A DNA stretch of 64,000 nucleotides, taken from Aromatoleum toluvorans. Lineage in GTDB: Bacteria; Pseudomonadota; Gammaproteobacteria; Burkholderiales; Rhodocyclaceae. The notes under the pieces were generated by a model. That model was not told the DNA's origin. It searched no databases and was given only the letters and a program-made list of their open reading frames with translations. The stretch is from assembly GCF_012910905.1 (NCBI RefSeq), contig NZ_WTVN01000001.1, positions 248,001 through 312,000 of the forward strand, in the 5' to 3' direction. The translations under genes and the position numbers were made by a program. Every line of letters begins with the position of its first letter. Position 1 is the first letter of the stretch. Of the stretch, positions 2,125-23,617 are shown in pieces.

Positions 2125-2355
2125 ATGACTTCGGACCAAGTCCAGGCGTTCTCGAATTCGGCGGGGGTTGCCCCGGCGGCCATCGCCATCGTCGTTGCGA
2201 TGATCGTTGCCGCCGTCGGCGTGCTTTGGGCGGCGGACATGGTTCGCCGGCTGGGTATTGAAGGGCTCCACGACCCGCGCCGTCTGCCAATGCTTTTCCT
2301 CTACAAGCTGCGGGTACTGATCATCGTCTTGCTGCTGATCTATCTACTGACCTAG
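2125..2355 (+). CDS. Small ICE membrane protein, TIGR03758 family
   Basis: A 76-residue protein with an N-terminal QAFSNSAG segment and two hydrophobic spans (about residues 17-40 and 52-74) separated by a basic loop. The size, layout and position between the RAQPRD gene and the TIGR03745 gene fit the TIGR03758 family, thought to be a pilin-like or channel membrane component. A related membrane module seems to be fused to the muramidase-like protein at 17485-18426. Confidence 0.82.
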   Translation: MTSDQVQAFSNSAGVAPAAIAIVVAMIVAAVGVLWAADMVRRLGIEGLHDPRRLPMLFLYKLRVLIIVLLLIYLLT

Positions 2356-2437: not shown

Positions 2438-2872
2438 ATGAAACGTCTCATCCATCATTCAGGCGCACCGAGCGGAGCGATCCATCGCGCGACCAGCGGT
2501 TTGACACGCTGGTGGAGTTCGCCCACGACGATTCCTCGAGCCGCTCCGCTCATGGTTGCGATCCTCGCCGCGGCCTTCATCGTCGAACCGGCCTTGGCCG
2601 AGCTGCCGACCGCCGTGCAGGCAGGCAGCGCCGCCTCGGGCGACTACATCGAAATCGGCAAGCAGTACTTCAAGAACGGTCTCATTGTCCTCGGCCTGAT
2701 CATCGCAACGCTGGGCTTCATCGCGGTCGCGGCCGGGGGCATTGCGAAGTTCAACGAGTACCGCATCGGACGCGCGGAGCTCGGTGACCTTGGCGTTCTC
2801 GCCGTTGTGGGCGCCGTCGTGCTGGTTCTCATGGTGTACCTCCTCAACGAAGCAGCGACCATCATCGACTAG
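2438..2872 (+). CDS. ICE membrane protein, TIGR03745 family (pilin-like)
   Basis: A 144-residue protein with a long basic N-terminus, a hydrophobic export segment ending near residue 52 (ALAELPTA), then two hydrophobic segments (about 78-100 and 118-138) split by a short charged loop. This is the layout of TraA/VirB2-like pilin precursors, and TIGR03745 proteins occupy this position in MPF_G systems. A GGAGG ribosome site precedes the ATG. It follows an 82-base gap without a recognisable gene. The pilin role is inference. Confidence 0.82.
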   Translation: MKRLIHHSGAPSGAIHRATSGLTRWWSSPTTIPRAAPLMVAILAAAFIVEPALAELPTAVQAGSAASGDYIEIGKQYFKNGLIVLGLIIATLGFIAVAAGGIAKFNEYRIGRAELGDLGVLAVVGAVVLVLMVYLLNEAATIID

Positions 2873-15345: not shown

Positions 15346-15363
15346 TTGGCAAGGCGCGTCGAG

Positions 15364-16371
15364 ATGGTTTCCCATCGGCAGACTCCAACCCGTACCTTCC
15401 GAGCCTTCTTGGGCACTGCGGCGCTTGCTCACGCGCCGCTCTCCGCCGCAATGGAGTTTACGACCACTGCGGCGCTATTCGCGCAGGCGATCGCCAGTTA
15501 CCCCTCGTGCGCGTTCTTGCACATCTCCGGCATCTGTTTCTGGCTCTTCTGCACGCCGTTCGGATGCGACATCAAGGCTTCGACCCGGTTCAGCCACTTC
15601 GCCCCCGATCTCGTGGTGAGTACCTACCACGATGTCGCGACCCATCCTTGGCCCGAGATCGGCATACCGCTTGCCGCGGCGACGACGAGCACCATCGGTG
15701 CGCTGCTCGGGAAGCCCCTGTCGGATAGCGCCGGGACTCGGTCGCGCGGAGACCGCACCGACAAGGCCCGGCGCTTTCGCGATGCCGATGCCATCGGCCA
15801 CCCGGCGACAAGCCTCGGCCCCTGCCCGACGGCAGTCAGCCCCTTCGTGCCCTACTTCATGTCCACGCTGGACGCGCTGGTGTGGCGCTCCTATCTCCCG
15901 GCGGAGTTGCTGTTCCCGGCCTCCTGGATCCCCGGCATGCGCGAGGTTGGCATGTGGCCGGCCAACACCTGGGGCAACGTGTATCCGCGGACCGGCGAAG
16001 TGGTGCAGCAGCACGAGGTGAAGGGTGCGGCGGTCCTGTCACAGCGCATCGCCGATTTCATCACTCGACCCGGACAGCCCCACATCTACACGTACGTGTC
16101 GTCCGCCGCGCTGGCAGTTCGTGGCAGCCAGCTCGTGTGGGATCCGCCGCCTGCAATGGAGATGAACCCGATGGGTGGCTTGTGGCAGATGAATGTCGCG
16201 GTGCCCACCAGTTGCCACGTGTTTGGCCTGAACGACACCGCAAGCCCGGTCTCATACGGCGAAGCGATGACGACGAACTCGGGGAGCTACGCCTATACGC
16301 TGTGGCGGCCCTATGCCTGCTGTCGAGTCAGGGGTGTCTTCATCGGCCACATCCAGTTCGGACTCTGGTGA
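15364..16371 (+). CDS. ICE protein, TIGR03756 family (TraU-like)
   Basis: A 335-residue exported protein. The mature N-terminus is rich in cysteines (YPSCAFLHISGICFWLFC and FGCD), as in TraU of F-type systems, which needs disulfide isomerisation; this fits the DsbC-like gene two positions upstream. I chose ATG 15364; a TTG directly after the previous stop (15346) is possible and adds six residues. TGGTGATGACATG separates it by four bases from the next gene. Confidence 0.85.
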   Translation: MVSHRQTPTRTFRAFLGTAALAHAPLSAAMEFTTTAALFAQAIASYPSCAFLHISGICFWLFCTPFGCDIKASTRFSHFAPDLVVSTYHDVATHPWPEIGIPLAAATTSTIGALLGKPLSDSAGTRSRGDRTDKARRFRDADAIGHPATSLGPCPTAVSPFVPYFMSTLDALVWRSYLPAELLFPASWIPGMREVGMWPANTWGNVYPRTGEVVQQHEVKGAAVLSQRIADFITRPGQPHIYTYVSSAALAVRGSQLVWDPPPAMEMNPMGGLWQMNVAVPTSCHVFGLNDTASPVSYGEAMTTNSGSYAYTLWRPYACCRVRGVFIGHIQFGLW

Positions 16372-16375
16372 TGAC

Positions 16376-16909
16376 ATGAAACGCACCCTGATCCTTTCTC
16401 TCGCCCTGCTGATCGCCGCCCCCGTCGGGTCCGCAGAGCCCCCCGTCATGCCGGCAATCGTCATCCATGACGGAGGCGGCGTATCACTGGCCCCCTATTT
16501 GACGAATGACGAGGGGGACGCCCGCGAGATGCCCCCATCAAAGCAGCCCGTCGCGCCGCGGCAATCGCCCTCCATACCAGCTTTCCCGGTCGCCTCGGCG
16601 AAGGCCGGCCCCGGGCGACTGTTGCCGAACCCGATGCCGGCACGGCTACCGGGCGGACCAGGCGCCCCGTTCTTCGTCGTCGGCGACGACGCGCCGTCCC
16701 ACGCGTGGCTGCAGCGCAACGCCGAGCGACTGCAGGCACTCGGCGCCCGCGGCATCGTCGCCGCCGTGGCAACCGAGGCCGACTTCACGCGCCTGCGCGC
16801 GCTCGCCGGCGTGCACATGGTGCCGATGTCCGCCGACGCGCTCCTGGAGGCCGCCGGCATCCGCGTCTGGCCGGTGCTGATCGGTGCCGACGGTTCCATT
16901 TCCCAGTGA
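16376..16909 (+). CDS. ICE protein, TIGR03765 family
   Basis: A 177-residue exported protein with a signal peptide about residues 1-20 (PVGSAEPP), a proline-rich middle, then a conserved domain beginning APFFVVGDD and ending VWPVLIGADG. These are hallmarks of the TIGR03765 family. From memory, in the reference islands this gene lies just upstream of traD; here it is at the far end of the module after TIGR03756, so the order has been rearranged. Function unknown. Confidence 0.82.
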   Translation: MKRTLILSLALLIAAPVGSAEPPVMPAIVIHDGGGVSLAPYLTNDEGDAREMPPSKQPVAPRQSPSIPAFPVASAKAGPGRLLPNPMPARLPGGPGAPFFVVGDDAPSHAWLQRNAERLQALGARGIVAAVATEADFTRLRALAGVHMVPMSADALLEAAGIRVWPVLIGADGSISQ

Positions 16910-16920
16910 GGAGACTCGGC

Positions 16921-17475
16921 ATGCTGCCACCGAAACGGCTCCCGTACGCATCTGCGTTCGTCGCGATCCTCTACGTCGGCTTGGTTCACGCCGACGAGAA
17001 GTCCGCGGCGCTTGCCGCCGCGCTCTTCGAGAACGTGCCGGCCTCGGCCTTGCCCGCGCCGGATCGCGTCGCGATCGCGCACCTGACACCGCTGGCGCTC
17101 AATGGTAGCCAGGTCGTCAGCACCCTCCCCGGCTGTGACCGCGAGCCCATGGATCCCGAAGCACACGTGGAGGATCTGAACGGCGACCGGAAGCCCGAAG
17201 TGTTCGTTGTGGCCGGCAACACCTGCACTTCAGGCATGACCGGCATCAGCGTTTGGCTTTACGCCAGACAGCGCGATGGAACATGGATTCAGCTGATGGA
17301 CGTGATCGCGCCGGCGTACCGCGTCCTGCGGTCCACAAGCCACGGCTGGCGCGATCTCGCACTCGCCAGCCGGACTTCGTCGTGCATGGGGGTGTGGCGG
17401 CTGGGTGGCGACGGCCACTATCGTTACGCCCGATCCGAAGCCGCCGATGGCGGCCCGTGTCCAGACCGTCAGTAG
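16921..17475 (+). CDS. Exported protein of unknown function
   Basis: A 184-residue protein with a signal peptide about residues 1-24 (LVHADEKS). The motif DLNGDRKPEVFV (about 75-86) resembles the calcium-binding loop of FG-GAP/VCBS-type repeats. Four cysteines (GCDRE, NTCTS, SSCMG, GPCPD) may form periplasmic disulfides. GAGGAG lies 7 bases before the ATG. The gene sits between TIGR03765 and the muramidase-like gene in the same direction, so it probably belongs to the transfer operon. I do not recognise a family. Confidence 0.68.
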   Translation: MLPPKRLPYASAFVAILYVGLVHADEKSAALAAALFENVPASALPAPDRVAIAHLTPLALNGSQVVSTLPGCDREPMDPEAHVEDLNGDRKPEVFVVAGNTCTSGMTGISVWLYARQRDGTWIQLMDVIAPAYRVLRSTSHGWRDLALASRTSSCMGVWRLGGDGHYRYARSEAADGGPCPDRQ

Positions 17476-17484
17476 GAAACCGCC

Positions 17485-18426
17485 ATGACGAGATTCCGTC
17501 TTCGCCCCGGTGCCCGCTCCCTGTACCTGCTGCTCCTCGTTGCCGGACTGGCATGGGCCGGCATCACCTACGTCGATTTCCTACGGGCGCTCGGCGAACG
17601 CGAGAGCAGCATGAGGCCGGACGTGATCATCGGTTCTGGCTACGCCGGGCTGTTCCAGTTCGGCGAATCCGCGCTGAAGGACGTGGGCCTCTACACCGGC
17701 GATGCCACCCCGAAGAAAAACGACTGGAACGGCAGCTTCAGCGGCAAGTACGGCGTGACGTCGCTTGCGGAGTTCCTTGCGAACCCCGATGCGCAGGTCC
17801 AGGCGGTCACCGCCTACCACGCCCAGGCTTGGCGCACCCTCGCCAGCACCTACGGCGCGGAGAGTTACCTCGGCACGACGATCAATGGAATCGAGATTAC
17901 ACAGTCCGGGCTCGTCGCCGCGGCCCATCTGCTCGGCGCCGGAACGGTCGGAGCATGGCTCAAGTCGGGCGGGACGACGAACCCCGCCGACGGCAACGGC
18001 ACGAAGCTCACCTCTTACCTTTCAAAGTTCGCCGGCTACACGCTGAGTGCCACCGCCCCGACATATGCCGCGCTGCGCGCCGCCGATCCTACCGGTGGCA
18101 CCACGGGCGAGAGCTACGTCTACACCGATCCGCCGCTGAGGTCGTCCGGCGGCGGATCCGGCGCCGTCGCGCTGCTCACCCCCCATAACAGCCACGGCTT
18201 TACCTCCGCGGCGCAGGGCTTCCATGCCGCCACCGGCTACCAGATGGGCAAGGTGCGGGATCTCCTGGTTGGCCTCGCCGCAACTGTAGTGCTGACGTGG
18301 ATGGCCTACGTCGTGATCAGCAAGTGGCACGCACTCAGCAGCGGCGGCGAAACAATTCGTGAAATGACGTACGACATTCTTCGGGCTATGGTAGTGACAT
18401 CAATCGTCCTGCTCCTGATGGTCTAG
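17485..18426 (+). CDS. Muramidase-like protein with C-terminal two-span membrane module
   Basis: A 313-residue protein: an N-terminal hydrophobic signal or anchor (about residues 10-27), then a lysozyme/transglycosylase-like region starting LGERESSM with YAGLFQFGESAL (catalytic-Glu-plus-substrate-loop pattern). A Gly/Ser linker lies near 215-225. The last 75 residues read FHAATGYQ, then two hydrophobic spans separated by a polar loop, the same layout as the stand-alone TIGR03758 protein. It probably opens peptidoglycan for the channel (VirB1 role) while anchored in the membrane. The catalytic Glu assignment is by eye. Confidence 0.68.
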   Translation: MTRFRLRPGARSLYLLLLVAGLAWAGITYVDFLRALGERESSMRPDVIIGSGYAGLFQFGESALKDVGLYTGDATPKKNDWNGSFSGKYGVTSLAEFLANPDAQVQAVTAYHAQAWRTLASTYGAESYLGTTINGIEITQSGLVAAAHLLGAGTVGAWLKSGGTTNPADGNGTKLTSYLSKFAGYTLSATAPTYAALRAADPTGGTTGESYVYTDPPLRSSGGGSGAVALLTPHNSHGFTSAAQGFHAATGYQMGKVRDLLVGLAATVVLTWMAYVVISKWHALSSGGETIREMTYDILRAMVVTSIVLLLMV

Positions 18427-18445: not shown

Positions 18446-19081
18446 ATGAAACCCGTAATTTGCCTCGTTGCCGCATTCGCGGCGTGGGTGTCGCCCGTTT
18501 CGGCGGACGTGCTCGATGGCGTGATCTTCGGCGTGAAGTGCATGAGGGCGGACGATCCGCAGGCATGCGAGGACCGCTCGAAGCGCGAGGCCAATGAGGC
18601 GCGCGAACGGATGCGGCAACAGTCCGGTGCAACGGGAGTACAGACTCAAGGGCGTACCGCCCCTGCCGGCGGGGACAGTTTTGGAAAAAAGGTCTACCGG
18701 AACTGGGTGGAGAATGTCGTTTGTAAGGCGTTCGCGAAGCGATCGTCACGCGACGTGGATACGACCTACGCGCGCGCCATGAGCCGCTATAGCTTCTTGA
18801 CGCCGAACGAGGTCGAACGCCGGTCATTGGCAGGCGAAGCGAGCCTGCATATCGCGGGCTATCTGCATGAATCCACTCCCGGCGCACTGTATCGCCTGGA
18901 ACAGGTGGTGCATTCACCTGACGTGGCCAATGGGCAGCGCCAGTACAAGCTGATTCTGGAGCTTGCACGCGACGGCTCCGGTACGCGCGTAACCGGGCAG
19001 TATTGCGTGACCACCGACGATCCCGCCGGCTGGCAGGACTTGCCGCCCAAGGTGCTCTCGAGTCTCAACTCCACCTTCTGA
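18446..19081 (+). CDS. Exported protein of unknown function
   Basis: A 211-residue protein with a signal peptide about residues 1-20 (VSPVSADV). The mature part has an early pair of cysteines (VKCMRADDPQACED), a charged helical stretch and a C-terminal half with alternating strands (YKLILELARDG, VTGQYCVTTDD). GGAGG precedes the ATG by 7 bases. It follows the muramidase-like gene by 19 bases and is probably the last gene of the long transfer transcript. No family recognised. Confidence 0.65.
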   Translation: MKPVICLVAAFAAWVSPVSADVLDGVIFGVKCMRADDPQACEDRSKREANEARERMRQQSGATGVQTQGRTAPAGGDSFGKKVYRNWVENVVCKAFAKRSSRDVDTTYARAMSRYSFLTPNEVERRSLAGEASLHIAGYLHESTPGALYRLEQVVHSPDVANGQRQYKLILELARDGSGTRVTGQYCVTTDDPAGWQDLPPKVLSSLNSTF

Positions 19082-19811: not shown

Positions 19812-20131
19812 CGCCACCCCGCGGACCGGGCGCGAGGCTGGATCGCAGCCAATGTGTTAATTCTGGATACCGAAACGTCCCATCCAGAAAGAATTATGGA
19901 TGCCAATTAGGACTGAACTGTCGGGACTGGGCTATCGGCATTGCAGGTGCGTCAGAACCCGACTACGATATGAAAGCAGTTCAGCCGAAAGGCTGCCAGC
20001 GTCCGGTCAGCCCCTGAAACCGGAATAGCCTTCGGGCTCGGGGTCACGTTCGTCGGTTCATGTCATTCCCATGGGGAGCTGCTCCCCATCAGGGACACGG
20101 CTCTTCCCATTCTTCTGAGGAGATGCCGGTG
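19812..20131. other. Intergenic stretch with inverted repeats
   Basis: About 320 bases without a convincing gene. Visible structure: an 8-base inverted repeat TTCTGGAT (19861-19868) / ATCCAGAA (19882-19889), and a hairpin CAGCC-GAAA-GGCTG (19982-19995). A second hairpin AGCC-TTCG-GGCT is at 20027-20038. The two tetraloop hairpins (GNRA and UUCG types) are typical of structured RNA. The local base composition is more AT-rich than the flanking ICE genes. No T-run follows either hairpin, so they are not ordinary terminators. Confidence 0.5.
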
Positions 20132-20719
20132 ATGCCCTTCTATTCTTCCCCTACTTCCCTTGCTGATGCCGCACTGCTTGAGCGCTTCTTCGGCCCGGAG
20201 GCCGAGGACGTCTGGGAGAGCTGCAGCGGATCGTGGACCCAGGTCGTTGGGCTTGCCCGCGAACCCCACACGCCCGCTTGGGATGCCTTGGCGTGTTCGC
20301 TCGAGATCCTGAAACGCAGCTTCGCCGAGGATCTGGCCACGCGCGATGTGCTCGACTCCCCGGCGGTCGTCAGACAGTTCCTCCGCACGTTTTTCGCAGG
20401 ACGCCCCTACGAGGTCTTCGTGGTCCTGTATCTCAATGCCCGCAATCATCTCATTCGCGCCGAGGAGGCGTTTCGCGGCACCTTGACGCAAACGAGTGTC
20501 TATCCGCGCGAGATTGTGCGGCGAGCGATCGAGCTCCATGCTGCAGCAGTGATCTTTTCGCACCAGCATCCGTCTGGAGCGTGCGAGCCCTCCACCGCCG
20601 ACGAGGCCCTCACACGGACCCTCAAGTCCGCACTGGCCTTGGTTGACGTGAGTGTGCTGGACCATTTTGTCGTCGCGGGTAACGCGACCGTTTCCTTTGC
20701 CGAGTCGGGCCGGCTGTAG
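20132..20719 (+). CDS. RadC-like JAB/JAMM domain protein
   Basis: A 195-residue protein. The zinc-hydrolase motif SHQHPSGACEPSTAD (near residues 142-156) gives the full HxHPSGx4SxxD JAMM signature of RadC-family proteins. Mobile-element RadC proteins are common beside conjugation modules; their role (DNA processing or anti-restriction) is unresolved. The start is chosen from GAGGAG at 20117-20122, nine bases before ATG 20132; an in-frame ATG at 20123 is too close to that site, and one at 20060 has no ribosome site. Confidence 0.85.
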   Translation: MPFYSSPTSLADAALLERFFGPEAEDVWESCSGSWTQVVGLAREPHTPAWDALACSLEILKRSFAEDLATRDVLDSPAVVRQFLRTFFAGRPYEVFVVLYLNARNHLIRAEEAFRGTLTQTSVYPREIVRRAIELHAAAVIFSHQHPSGACEPSTADEALTRTLKSALALVDVSVLDHFVVAGNATVSFAESGRL

Positions 20720-22038: not shown

Positions 22039-22248
22039 ATGTTCCTGAGTAAGGACGAACTCCGCGACCTCACTGGCTACCAGAAGCCCTCGTTGCAAAA
22101 GCGTTGGCTCACGGATCGTGCCTGGCCGTACGAGGAAGACGCCGCTGGATACCCGAAAGTGCTGCGCTCGATCGTCGAGAAGCGCATGGGCGGCTCGACT
22201 GAAGCTGCCCGGCGCAGGCAAGGCCCCGATCTCGGAGCTATCCTGTGA
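22039..22248 (+). CDS. DUF4224 protein, putative excisionase
   Basis: A 69-residue protein with the DUF4224 pattern: FLSKDELRDLTGYQKPSLQ at the N-terminus and WLTDRAWPYEEDAAGYPKV after it. This looks like a small winged helix-turn-helix. DUF4224 genes typically sit immediately upstream of tyrosine integrases in phages and islands and are thought to serve as recombination directionality factors. The stop overlaps the integrase start (TGATG), so integrase and this protein are made together. ATG 22039 follows AGAGG. Confidence 0.8.
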   Translation: MFLSKDELRDLTGYQKPSLQKRWLTDRAWPYEEDAAGYPKVLRSIVEKRMGGSTEAARRRQGPDLGAIL

Positions 22249-23243
22249 TGATGGGACGTCCGCGAAAAAATTGCATGAACCTCCCGCCTCGCATGTACCT
22301 CAAGGGGCGGTCGTATTGGTATGCAGCGAACGGAGGATGGATCAATCTCGGGCGCGACCTCTCCATCGCTCGGACGAAATGGGCTGAGCTGGAGAACACG
22401 AACGCCCCTGCCGAGACGATGTCTGGCGTCATCGGCCGCTACCTGCGAGAGGTGGTACCCGAAAAAGCCGCGAGCACCCAGGCCGGCAACAAACTGGAAT
22501 CGGCGACGCTGACGAAGGTGTTCGGCCTAATGAAGCCGGCCGACATCACCGCGGCTGATGTGTGGAACTTCATGCAGGCCCGCGCGAAGACGTCGAAAGT
22601 CCGCGCCAACCGCGAGCGATCCCTGCTACAGGACATCATGCGCCACGCGATCATGTGGGGTCACTGCAAGGACAACCCGGTGCGCGAGGTGAAGCCGTTC
22701 AAGGAAACGCCTCGCACGCGCTACGTCACCGATGCCGAGTTCGATGCGGTGAAGAAGATCGCCCCTCCGCTCGTTGCCGCACTGATGGACCTTGCTCGCC
22801 TCACCGGTCAGCGCCGCGGTGATCTACTATCCCTGCGCCGCGATGCGATCACGGACGAAGGGCTGATGATCAGTCAGGGAAAGACGGCTCGCAGTCGGCT
22901 CGTACAGATCTGCATCGCGTGGACGCCCGCATTGCGCGAGGCGGTGAACGCGCTGAAAGAACTGAAGCGCCCGATTGCCAGCACGTCGCTGGTGACCAGA
23001 AGGGACGGATCACCGATGACGATGGAAGGCTGGAAAACTGCATGGCAACGCACGATGGATAAGGCGATCGCCGAAGGCGTGATCACCGCGCGATTCCACT
23101 TCCACGATTTGCGCGCGAAGACAATCACCGAAATGAAGGAAGGCGGCCGGGACGCCAGGGCGCTTTCAGGCCACGCGTCCGATGCAATGATCGAAAAGGT
23201 CTATGACCGGCGCAGGGTAAAGAAAGCGACTCCGCTGGAATAA
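22248..23243 (+). CDS. int: Tyrosine-family site-specific integrase
   Basis: A 331-residue recombinase. The catalytic set is complete: Arg in TGQRRGD (about residue 188), Lys in QGKTAR (about 212), HDLR (about 284-287), His in SGHAS (about 308) and the nucleophile Tyr in VYDRRR (about 318). The N-terminal part carries a core-binding SAM-like domain. It points toward the tRNA-His gene, ending 75 bases from its 3' end; this xis-int-att arrangement is common in phage-like modules. It integrates and excises the ICE. Start: ATG 22248 overlapping the previous stop; ATG 22251 is also possible. Confidence 0.92.
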   Translation: MMGRPRKNCMNLPPRMYLKGRSYWYAANGGWINLGRDLSIARTKWAELENTNAPAETMSGVIGRYLREVVPEKAASTQAGNKLESATLTKVFGLMKPADITAADVWNFMQARAKTSKVRANRERSLLQDIMRHAIMWGHCKDNPVREVKPFKETPRTRYVTDAEFDAVKKIAPPLVAALMDLARLTGQRRGDLLSLRRDAITDEGLMISQGKTARSRLVQICIAWTPALREAVNALKELKRPIASTSLVTRRDGSPMTMEGWKTAWQRTMDKAIAEGVITARFHFHDLRAKTITEMKEGGRDARALSGHASDAMIEKVYDRRRVKKATPLE

Positions 23244-23283
23244 ATCGGTGCGGAGTTTTGAAAAAAAGCCAGAGTATTGAAAA

Positions 23284-23303
23284 CGGCACCCCGAAGGGTG
23301 CCG
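23284..23303 (-). terminator. Hairpin downstream of the tRNA cluster
   Basis: CGGCACCC (23284-23291), loop CGAA, GGGTGCCG (23296-23303): an 8-bp perfect stem. On the minus strand it is followed by TTTTC, so it serves the tRNA transcript; on the + strand it may also end the integrase message. It lies between the integrase stop and the tRNA 3' end, inside the presumed element end. Confidence 0.7.
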
Positions 23304-23317
23304 TATCTCTTTGATTT

Positions 23318-23394
23318 TGGGGCGACATACCGGGATCGAACCGGTGACAACTGGAGCCACAATCCAGTGCTCTACCGACTGAGCTAATGCCGCC
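23318..23394 (-). tRNA. tRNA-His (anticodon GTG)
   Basis: The minus strand folds into a cloverleaf with an 8-bp acceptor stem that includes the extra G at -1 opposite C73, the hallmark of tRNA-His. The anticodon loop reads TTGTGGC and the CCA end is encoded. The 3' end faces the integrase gene and is the likely attachment site of the ICE. Confidence 0.95.
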
Positions 23395-23440
23395 ACTTCT
23401 CCAGCTGCAGAAAAATTCTACAGCCAAAAAACCTTTTCTC

Positions 23441-23517
23441 TGGCCTGCCCGACAGGAATCGAACCTGTAACCCCCGGCTTAGAAGGCCGGTGCTCTATCC
23501 AGTTGAGCTACGGGCAG
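23441..23517 (-). tRNA. tRNA-Arg (anticodon TCT)
   Basis: A 77-base cloverleaf on the minus strand: acceptor CTGCCCG pairs with CGGGCAG, anticodon loop CTTCTAA, T-loop TTCGATT, encoded CCA. It sits 46 bases upstream (in transcription) of tRNA-His, so the two are probably processed from one transcript. Confidence 0.95.
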
Positions 23518-23540
23518 ATCCCGCGGGCATCGGGGTTAGC

Positions 23541-23617
23541 TGGTCGGGGTGGAGGGATTCGAACCCCCGACATCTTGCTCCCAAAGCAAGCGCGCTACCG
23601 GACTGCGCTACACCCCG
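23541..23617 (-). tRNA. tRNA-Pro (anticodon TGG)
   Basis: A 77-base cloverleaf on the minus strand: acceptor CGGGGTG, anticodon stem CTTGC/GCAAG with loop TTTGGGA, encoded CCA. It is the first gene of the Pro-Arg-His cluster, comparable to the argX-hisR-leuT-proM cluster of enterobacteria. Confidence 0.95.

Follow-up and report, generated by a model that had tools for sequence, protein, structure and literature searches.

An intact open reading frame in the window, the 64,000-nucleotide stretch of the Aromatoleum toluvorans genome that was analysed (contig NZ_WTVN01000001.1, positions 248,001 to 312,000), encodes a 313 aa protein in which an SLT/GH23 lysozyme-like domain is joined to a two-helix membrane module of the DUF3262/TIGR03758 family. 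The gene lies in a conjugation cluster. The preliminary description had proposed a fusion of this kind, and it is confirmed as real, with both Pfam domains found above their cut-offs. We consider it rather likely that the protein serves a GI-type (MPF_G) conjugation machine as an accessory lytic transglycosylase tethered to the inner membrane. The layout of the gene is as follows.

17485 to 18426, forward strand: SLT-DUF3262 fusion protein, 313 aa, an intact ORF with two Pfam domains and an architecture found at 19 loci
17485 to 17559, forward strand: residues 1–25, signal peptide or signal anchor, a hydrophobic stretch and then A-W-A followed by G, the putative cleavage site lying between A and G
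17557 to 18054, forward strand: residues 25–190, lysozyme-like (SLT/GH23) domain, with the predicted catalytic E40 in an R39-E40-S41 motif
18055 to 18192, forward strand: residues 191–236, linker, weakly conserved in the alignment and modelled with low confidence
18193 to 18423, forward strand: residues 237–313, DUF3262 module, a predicted helical hairpin of helices 254–285 and 291–312

The SLT domain (PF01464) was matched at residues 32–113 with 25.9 bits against a cut-off of 21.3, and DUF3262 (PF11660) at residues 245–310 with 31.7 bits against a cut-off of 27. When the fusions of four relatives were scanned, SLT was above the cut-off in all four and DUF3262 in two, with the remaining two scoring 26.7 and 23.0 bits against the cut-off of 27. 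The hydropathy profile showed a signal-like stretch at the N-terminus, where the 19-residue windows starting at residues 9–16 exceeded 1.4, and two membrane segments at the C-terminus. The set of 20 fusion sequences represents 19 loci, one plasmid having been entered twice (L018 and L083). The N-terminus was hydrophobic in all 20. At the C-terminus, 19 had two hydrophobic segments and one had a third that overlapped. A full-length structure model was poor (pLDDT 53.8, falling below 50 over residues 198–255), and the helices at 254–285 and 291–312 were predicted in it. A VIA search with this poor model gave unspecific helix matches, and a comparison of the whole fusion protein with solved structures gave none. 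Among three close relatives, with few substitutions between them, dN/dS was 0.13–0.34 for the enzyme domain, 0.24–0.46 for the anchor and 0.41–0.76 for the linker. Both domains of the fusion appear to be maintained.

The C-terminal module was assigned to its family by several comparisons. Against TIGR03758, which the preliminary description had named, the match at residues 245–308 reached 20.3 bits and stayed below the strict curated cut-off of 42.7, so the assignment did not hold at that level. The last 75 residues scored 30.1 bits on a profile for which 22 stand-alone DUF3262 proteins were taken from other genomes, leaving out L034, L048 and L029 (the last with an internal stop). Of 1000 sequences shuffled inside blocks of 10 residues, so that the hydrophobic pattern was roughly preserved, the best scored 23.0 bits, and the best of full shuffles scored 9.3 bits. 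Chance hydrophobic similarity was therefore ruled out, as none of the 1000 segment shuffles scored as high. A divergent relative (L088) reached 42.9 bits on the same profile compared with 21.6 for its best shuffle, and the C-termini of all 20 fusion sequences (19 loci) scored between 20.8 and 45.6 bits. Conversely, when the profile was built from the fused modules, it found 21 of the 22 stand-alone proteins at E<0.001, missing only L031 (E=0.13; E-values for a nominal 1000 sequences). Aligning the profiles of the two kinds of module with each other gave a probability of 97.6%.

The 4.8-Mb genome contained only two DUF3262 matches above the cut-off, the fusion and a stand-alone protein encoded in the same window close to a DUF2976 gene.

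2125 to 2355, forward strand: stand-alone DUF3262 protein, 76 aa, assigned by its PF11660 match and found to be diverged in the module tree
2438 to 2872, forward strand: TIGR03745/DUF2976 membrane protein, assigned by family match and distantly similar to DUF3262 in profile alignment

The protein at 2125 matched PF11660 with 33 bits, over residues 1–37 only, and TIGR03758 with 16.9 bits, below the cut-off of 42.7. The likeness of the fusion C-terminus to this protein, on which the preliminary description was built, stood at the level of the family, both proteins passing PF11660. It did not survive pairwise comparison, in which the two were not detectably similar (BLASTP, 21% over 38 aa, E=1.9). 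On a profile made from the fused modules, moreover, the DUF2976 protein of the window reached 15.0 bits and the 2125 protein no more than 8.8 bits, and the resemblance is thus limited to the family. In an unrooted tree of 52 modules and 77 columns, the ten stand-alone DUF3262 proteins from clusters that carry a fusion made up a separate branch (support 100/98). The fused modules grouped with the canonical stand-alone proteins, the fused group itself having a support of 74/79. By this placement, which is weak on 77 columns, the fused copy would be the more canonical of the two. That the anchor derives directly from the 2125 protein was rejected, given the separate branch and the lack of pairwise similarity. 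The stand-alone proteins of the fusion-bearing clusters, such as that at 2125–2355, are strongly diverged from the canonical ones.

Comparison of DUF3262 with DUF2976 by hhalign gave 96.3% for the stand-alone set, 90.0% for the fused set and 92.0% for a mixed set, while a TIGR03750 control gave a probability of less than 1% against the DUF3262 profiles. DUF2976 and DUF3262 may be distant paralogues. The likeness to DUF2976, whose position we take to be that of the pilin gene in F-type clusters, allows a hint of a pilin-like nature for the DUF3262 module. When the DUF2976 and DUF3262 profiles were compared with solved structures, no pilin and no trustworthy match was obtained, and no pilin function was found for either family.

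The N-terminal domain was modelled separately. The structure alignment (A5) contained 16 viral-contig relatives, two relatives from genomes and the window protein; the 16 were drawn from 33 viral loci, near-copies and some others being left out. The AlphaFold2 model of residues 25–190 was confident (pLDDT 91.0, pTM 0.86). Its best structural matches were lytic transglycosylases, which bears out the lysozyme-like fold that had been predicted for this part of the protein. In VIA-align, the best were MltE (Z 10.0, 3.3 Å over 123 residues), Cj0843 (9.9) and MltC (9.5), followed by Slt (9.1), a T7 core protein (8.9) and phiKZ gp144 (8.7). The tool cautions that Z values of 8–10 may reflect merely a common arrangement. 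All 50 matches listed were lytic transglycosylases, lysozymes, phage lysins or T7 core proteins, and the uniformity of this list makes the fold persuasive despite the Z range. Nearly all of the 50 matches listed by Foldseek were also lytic transglycosylases, at weak E-values (best 0.059, none at or below 0.001). A search of solved structures with a sequence profile of the domain found nothing.

R39, E40, S41, G55 and Q58 were invariant in all 20 fusion sequences (19 loci). The aligned ranges begin at model residue 4, which is MltE residue 52 and Slt residue 491, and E40 is model residue 16. If there is no intervening gap, E40 would correspond to MltE E64 and Slt E503, which according to the titles of the structure entries are the residues changed in the 'inactive mutant' structures. 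By sequence and model, this is a GH23-like domain with a conserved glutamate of the catalytic type.

By sequence, the fusion matched phrog_27932, a family of phage proteins described as 'baseplate hub subunit and tail lysozyme', with E=2.6e-10, and tblastn found nine phage records (Tenacibaculum, Pseudoalteromonas, Pantoea and Escherichia phages), none of which reached the C-terminal module. The enzyme domain is thus related to phage tail or virion lysozymes, with 36–37% identity to the fusion (tblastn) in pT24 of Tenacibaculum and pYD6-A of Pseudoalteromonas, where the pYD6-A match is a virion RNA polymerase. In phages the domain occurs in annotated virion proteins, whereas here it is part of a membrane protein of a conjugation cluster. 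Further relatives of the lysozyme domain were L068 and L069, annotated as M23-type peptidase or extensin, L070, a hypothetical protein, and L016, a 399-aa frame of another genome. The domain is, by its sequence relatives, widely reused across proteins.

The left part of the window is a conjugation cluster, with RAQPRD, TIGR03745, TIGR03755, TIGR03757, TIGR03756 and TIGR03765 all above their cut-offs. We take this RAQPRD/TIGR037xx gene set to be the mark of the GI-type or MPF_G class. TIGR03747, TIGR03749, TIGR03750, TIGR03752 and the VirB4-like ATPase were named by way of an annotated Nitrogeniibacter cluster and tblastn; one further cluster gene, without a match in Pfam, is presumably TIGR03759. 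The surroundings of the fusion and the integrase to its right are as follows.

15346 to 16371, forward strand: TIGR03756 conjugation protein of a divergent subtype
16376 to 16909, forward strand: TIGR03765/DUF2859 protein, which opens the block holding the fusion
16921 to 17475, forward strand: conserved protein of 184 aa adjoining the fusion on its upstream side, with an FG-GAP match below the cut-off (22.2 vs 26.9 bits)
18446 to 19081, forward strand: 211-aa protein downstream of the fusion, with no family above the cut-off
22245 to 23243, forward strand: phage-type integrase beside a tRNA-His gene (23318–23393)

The order TIGR03756, TIGR03765, the gene at 16921, the fusion and the gene at 18446 was found in all nine further genomes of the same genus (a count that leaves out G001 and G003) and in a plasmid of Nitrogeniibacter, whose annotation calls the fusion a 'transglycosylase SLT domain-containing protein'. 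From TIGR03756 through the fusion, the order was also kept at five of six other loci. In G888 the cluster was rearranged and TIGR03765 was not detected, with the fusion still flanked by the 184-aa and 211-aa genes. The 211-aa gene was not detected at three of the six loci (G962, G957 and G873 C174). The enzyme may have the 184-aa and 211-aa proteins as partners or be regulated by them. To the right, the integrase adjoins tRNA-His, tRNA-Arg and tRNA-Pro genes (22245–23617) and probably marks one edge of the element, its attachment edge. A RadC-like JAB domain protein (20060–20719, 137.4 bits) lies between the transfer genes and the integrase, and a radC gene is also annotated in the Nitrogeniibacter plasmid with the like transfer cluster.

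A search for further fusions, suggested in the preliminary description, was productive. A profile made from 13 fusions found this architecture at 19 loci, which lie in 18 of the 395 genomes of the family and in four of its 68 genera, and an isolated gene accident was therefore rejected. TIGR03756 gave 87 matches in the same 395 genomes, which were sorted by hand into 62 classic (at least 377 bits) and 20 divergent (252–345 bits) loci, five partial matches being excluded. The fusion was found beside 19 of the 20 divergent loci, always within about 7 kb, and beside none of the 62 classic loci. The sole divergent locus without it (G979) is on a contig of 8315 bases, and this absence is weak evidence because the contig is short. 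Over the 40 kb read, a classic element in G002 carried a canonical DUF3262 gene and lacked the fusion. The 40 kb surrounding a classic TIGR03756 match in G012 contained no VirB4-like, DUF3262 or fusion match, and this element may therefore be incomplete. G002 contains both a classic and a divergent conjugation cluster (L173–L174), and TIGR03756 matches of both kinds were also found in G005, G012, G013 and G001. As judged from sequence, the fusion marks a distinct sublineage of the GI-type conjugation systems that is recognisable by the fusion gene.

Beyond the family, PF11660 searches of 399 genomes of the order and 369 of the class gave no second fusion, and a search of 284 genomes of the phylum with the fusion profile returned only the fusion of the window. 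Partial matches in the phylum search covered the enzyme domain only (G105 and G1243) or the anchor only (G1219 and G1315). When viral contigs were scanned with this profile of fusions, 47 pattern matches were obtained and no fusion was confirmed. A scan of genome contigs with two peptide patterns confirmed six loci out of 23 stretches; being limited to these two patterns, it understates the spread of the fusion. Longer DUF3262 frames of 109–161 aa were found in the order and class genomes, but in these a start codon directly precedes the module and the extra length is upstream open frame. Two candidates were discarded: L034 (129 aa) is a DUF2976 protein, and L048 (a 558-aa frame) scored below the cut-off and was judged to be a false match.

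The cluster encodes another transglycosylase-like protein upstream of the fusion (L017:16041–16685), which was below the cut-offs for both SLT (17.3 vs 21.3 bits) and VirB1 (18.5 vs 212 bits). In the three sequences checked, one of which (G014) was mis-framed at the first codon, it had one N-terminal hydrophobic stretch and none at the C-terminus. With a hydrophobic stretch at the N-terminus only, this protein would seem to be soluble or exported. Both a stand-alone DUF3262 gene and a separate transglycosylase gene were present at all 13 fusion loci that reach far enough, namely those of the window, nine relatives of the same genus, Nitrogeniibacter, G873 C174 and G962. Since neither separate gene has been lost at these loci, the fusion is an addition rather than a replacement. 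An origin of the enzyme domain from the cluster's other transglycosylase was thought unlikely, as the latter is below the SLT and VirB1 cut-offs and the fused domain matches phage lysozymes.

On the reading that we favour, the fusion would be exported by Sec. Its enzyme domain (residues 25–190) would then be periplasmic, and the C-terminal hairpin would span the inner membrane, its two ends outside and a short loop facing the cytoplasm. DUF3262 is probably part of the inner-membrane portion of the machine, going by its place in the cluster. Because the anchor shares its family with a small membrane protein of the machine's own cluster, we infer, from family membership and genome position only, that it would dock in the inner-membrane complex, and that wall cutting would thereby be confined to the assembly site. 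The tethered enzyme would open peptidoglycan where the machine is built, supplementing the separate transglycosylase, and would in this way couple wall opening to channel assembly, as first suggested in the preliminary description. As the enzyme domain resembles phage tail or virion lysozymes, a phage-type lysozyme and an extra DUF3262 copy may have joined. That the cluster already encodes a transglycosylase weighs against the reading of the fusion as an accessory enzyme of the machine.

The hairpin might instead be a convenient two-helix anchor with no specific docking, making the protein a general inner-membrane muramidase that happens to be encoded with transfer genes. Two-helix membrane anchors are common, no interaction data were found for the hairpin, and the stand-alone DUF3262 gene is still in its usual position in the cluster. 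However, the anchor belongs to a recognisable family of conjugation clusters, its dN/dS is below 0.5, and the gene is limited to one T4SS sublineage within the family searched, and we regard this as unlikely. We give a similarly low probability to the fused copy having replaced the stand-alone one in the ordinary DUF3262 role, in which case the enzyme would be cargo and the stand-alone copy would have specialised. The grouping of the fused copies with canonical DUF3262 proteins and the well-supported separate branch of the stand-alone copies (100/98) are as expected under a takeover, but the tree is unrooted and built on 77 columns, the fused group is weakly supported (74/79) and the stand-alone copy retains the canonical gene position.

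The phage relationship of the enzyme domain allows a further explanation, in which the module would genuinely be a pilin-like subunit and the fusion protein would form part of the pilus or its tip, presenting a phage-type lysozyme to the recipient wall as phages do with their tail lysozymes. The matches of the N-terminal domain to phage tail or virion lysozymes and the T7 core protein fold fit this, as does the distant similarity of DUF3262 to DUF2976, which lies at the F-type pilin gene position. Against it, profile searches of solved structures with DUF2976 and DUF3262 found no pilin, and a 165-residue domain would be expected to impede pilin packing except at a tip; we consider it improbable. 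Slightly more speculative still is the proposal that a conjugation system captured a phage tail lysozyme on a pilin-like subunit, forming a wall-piercing tip or collar that would act on the recipient in the manner of a phage tail. Least probable, and in our view very much so, is an inactive enzyme domain serving as a wall-binding anchor or adhesin. An adhesin role has been proposed for inactive VirB1 homologues in some Gram-positive systems, according to passages of a 2025 review (PMC12857230), but E40, G55 and Q58 are kept in all 20 fusion sequences and the model matches known transglycosylases.

The tethered, accessory lytic transglycosylase that we favour bears on a general problem. T4SS machines need the donor wall to be opened without cell lysis, and what keeps the wall enzyme at the site of construction in Gram-negative T4SS is, to our knowledge, poorly understood. 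Here the confinement is seemingly encoded in one polypeptide, and the question becomes open to domain-swap testing. The fusion also gives a hint about the uncharacterised DUF3262, as it would be a natural case of this module being used to dock an enzyme of the periplasm. No published account of such a fusion was found in the openly licensed PMC literature, where DUF3262 was not found by name and TIGR03758 occurs by name in three papers. Compared with the DUF3262/TIGR03758 small membrane proteins of GI-type ICEs, the module of the fusion is a member of the same PF11660 family. It differs in standing behind an enzyme with a signal-like N-terminus and in scoring below the TIGR03758 cut-off.

The Gram-positive T4SS hydrolases PrgK (pCF10), TraG (pIP501) and Orf14 (Tn916) are not known to carry a DUF3262 module. 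Like the fusion, they are membrane-tethered wall hydrolases of conjugation systems, and they differ in their domains, given as CHAP, SLT, MUR and LytM in a figure legend of the same review (PMC12857230). The relevant passages of that review describe all known Gram-positive VirB1 enzymes as membrane-anchored and the Gram-negative ones as soluble and secreted to the periplasm. The fusion shares with VirB1 (GAMMA class, PMC12857230) an SLT-type enzyme encoded in a conjugation cluster and a signal-like N-terminus. It differs in having a C-terminal two-helix module, a phage-type domain and a second transglycosylase gene in the same cluster. At least two hydrophobic C-terminal segments were found in all 20 fusion sequences, and it is because this T4SS-associated enzyme has a membrane module that the fusion departs from the soluble periplasmic description. 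Despite this module, the fusion probably works like VirB1, and a membrane-tethered wall enzyme of a Gram-negative T4SS would be new relative to the description of VirB1 as soluble.
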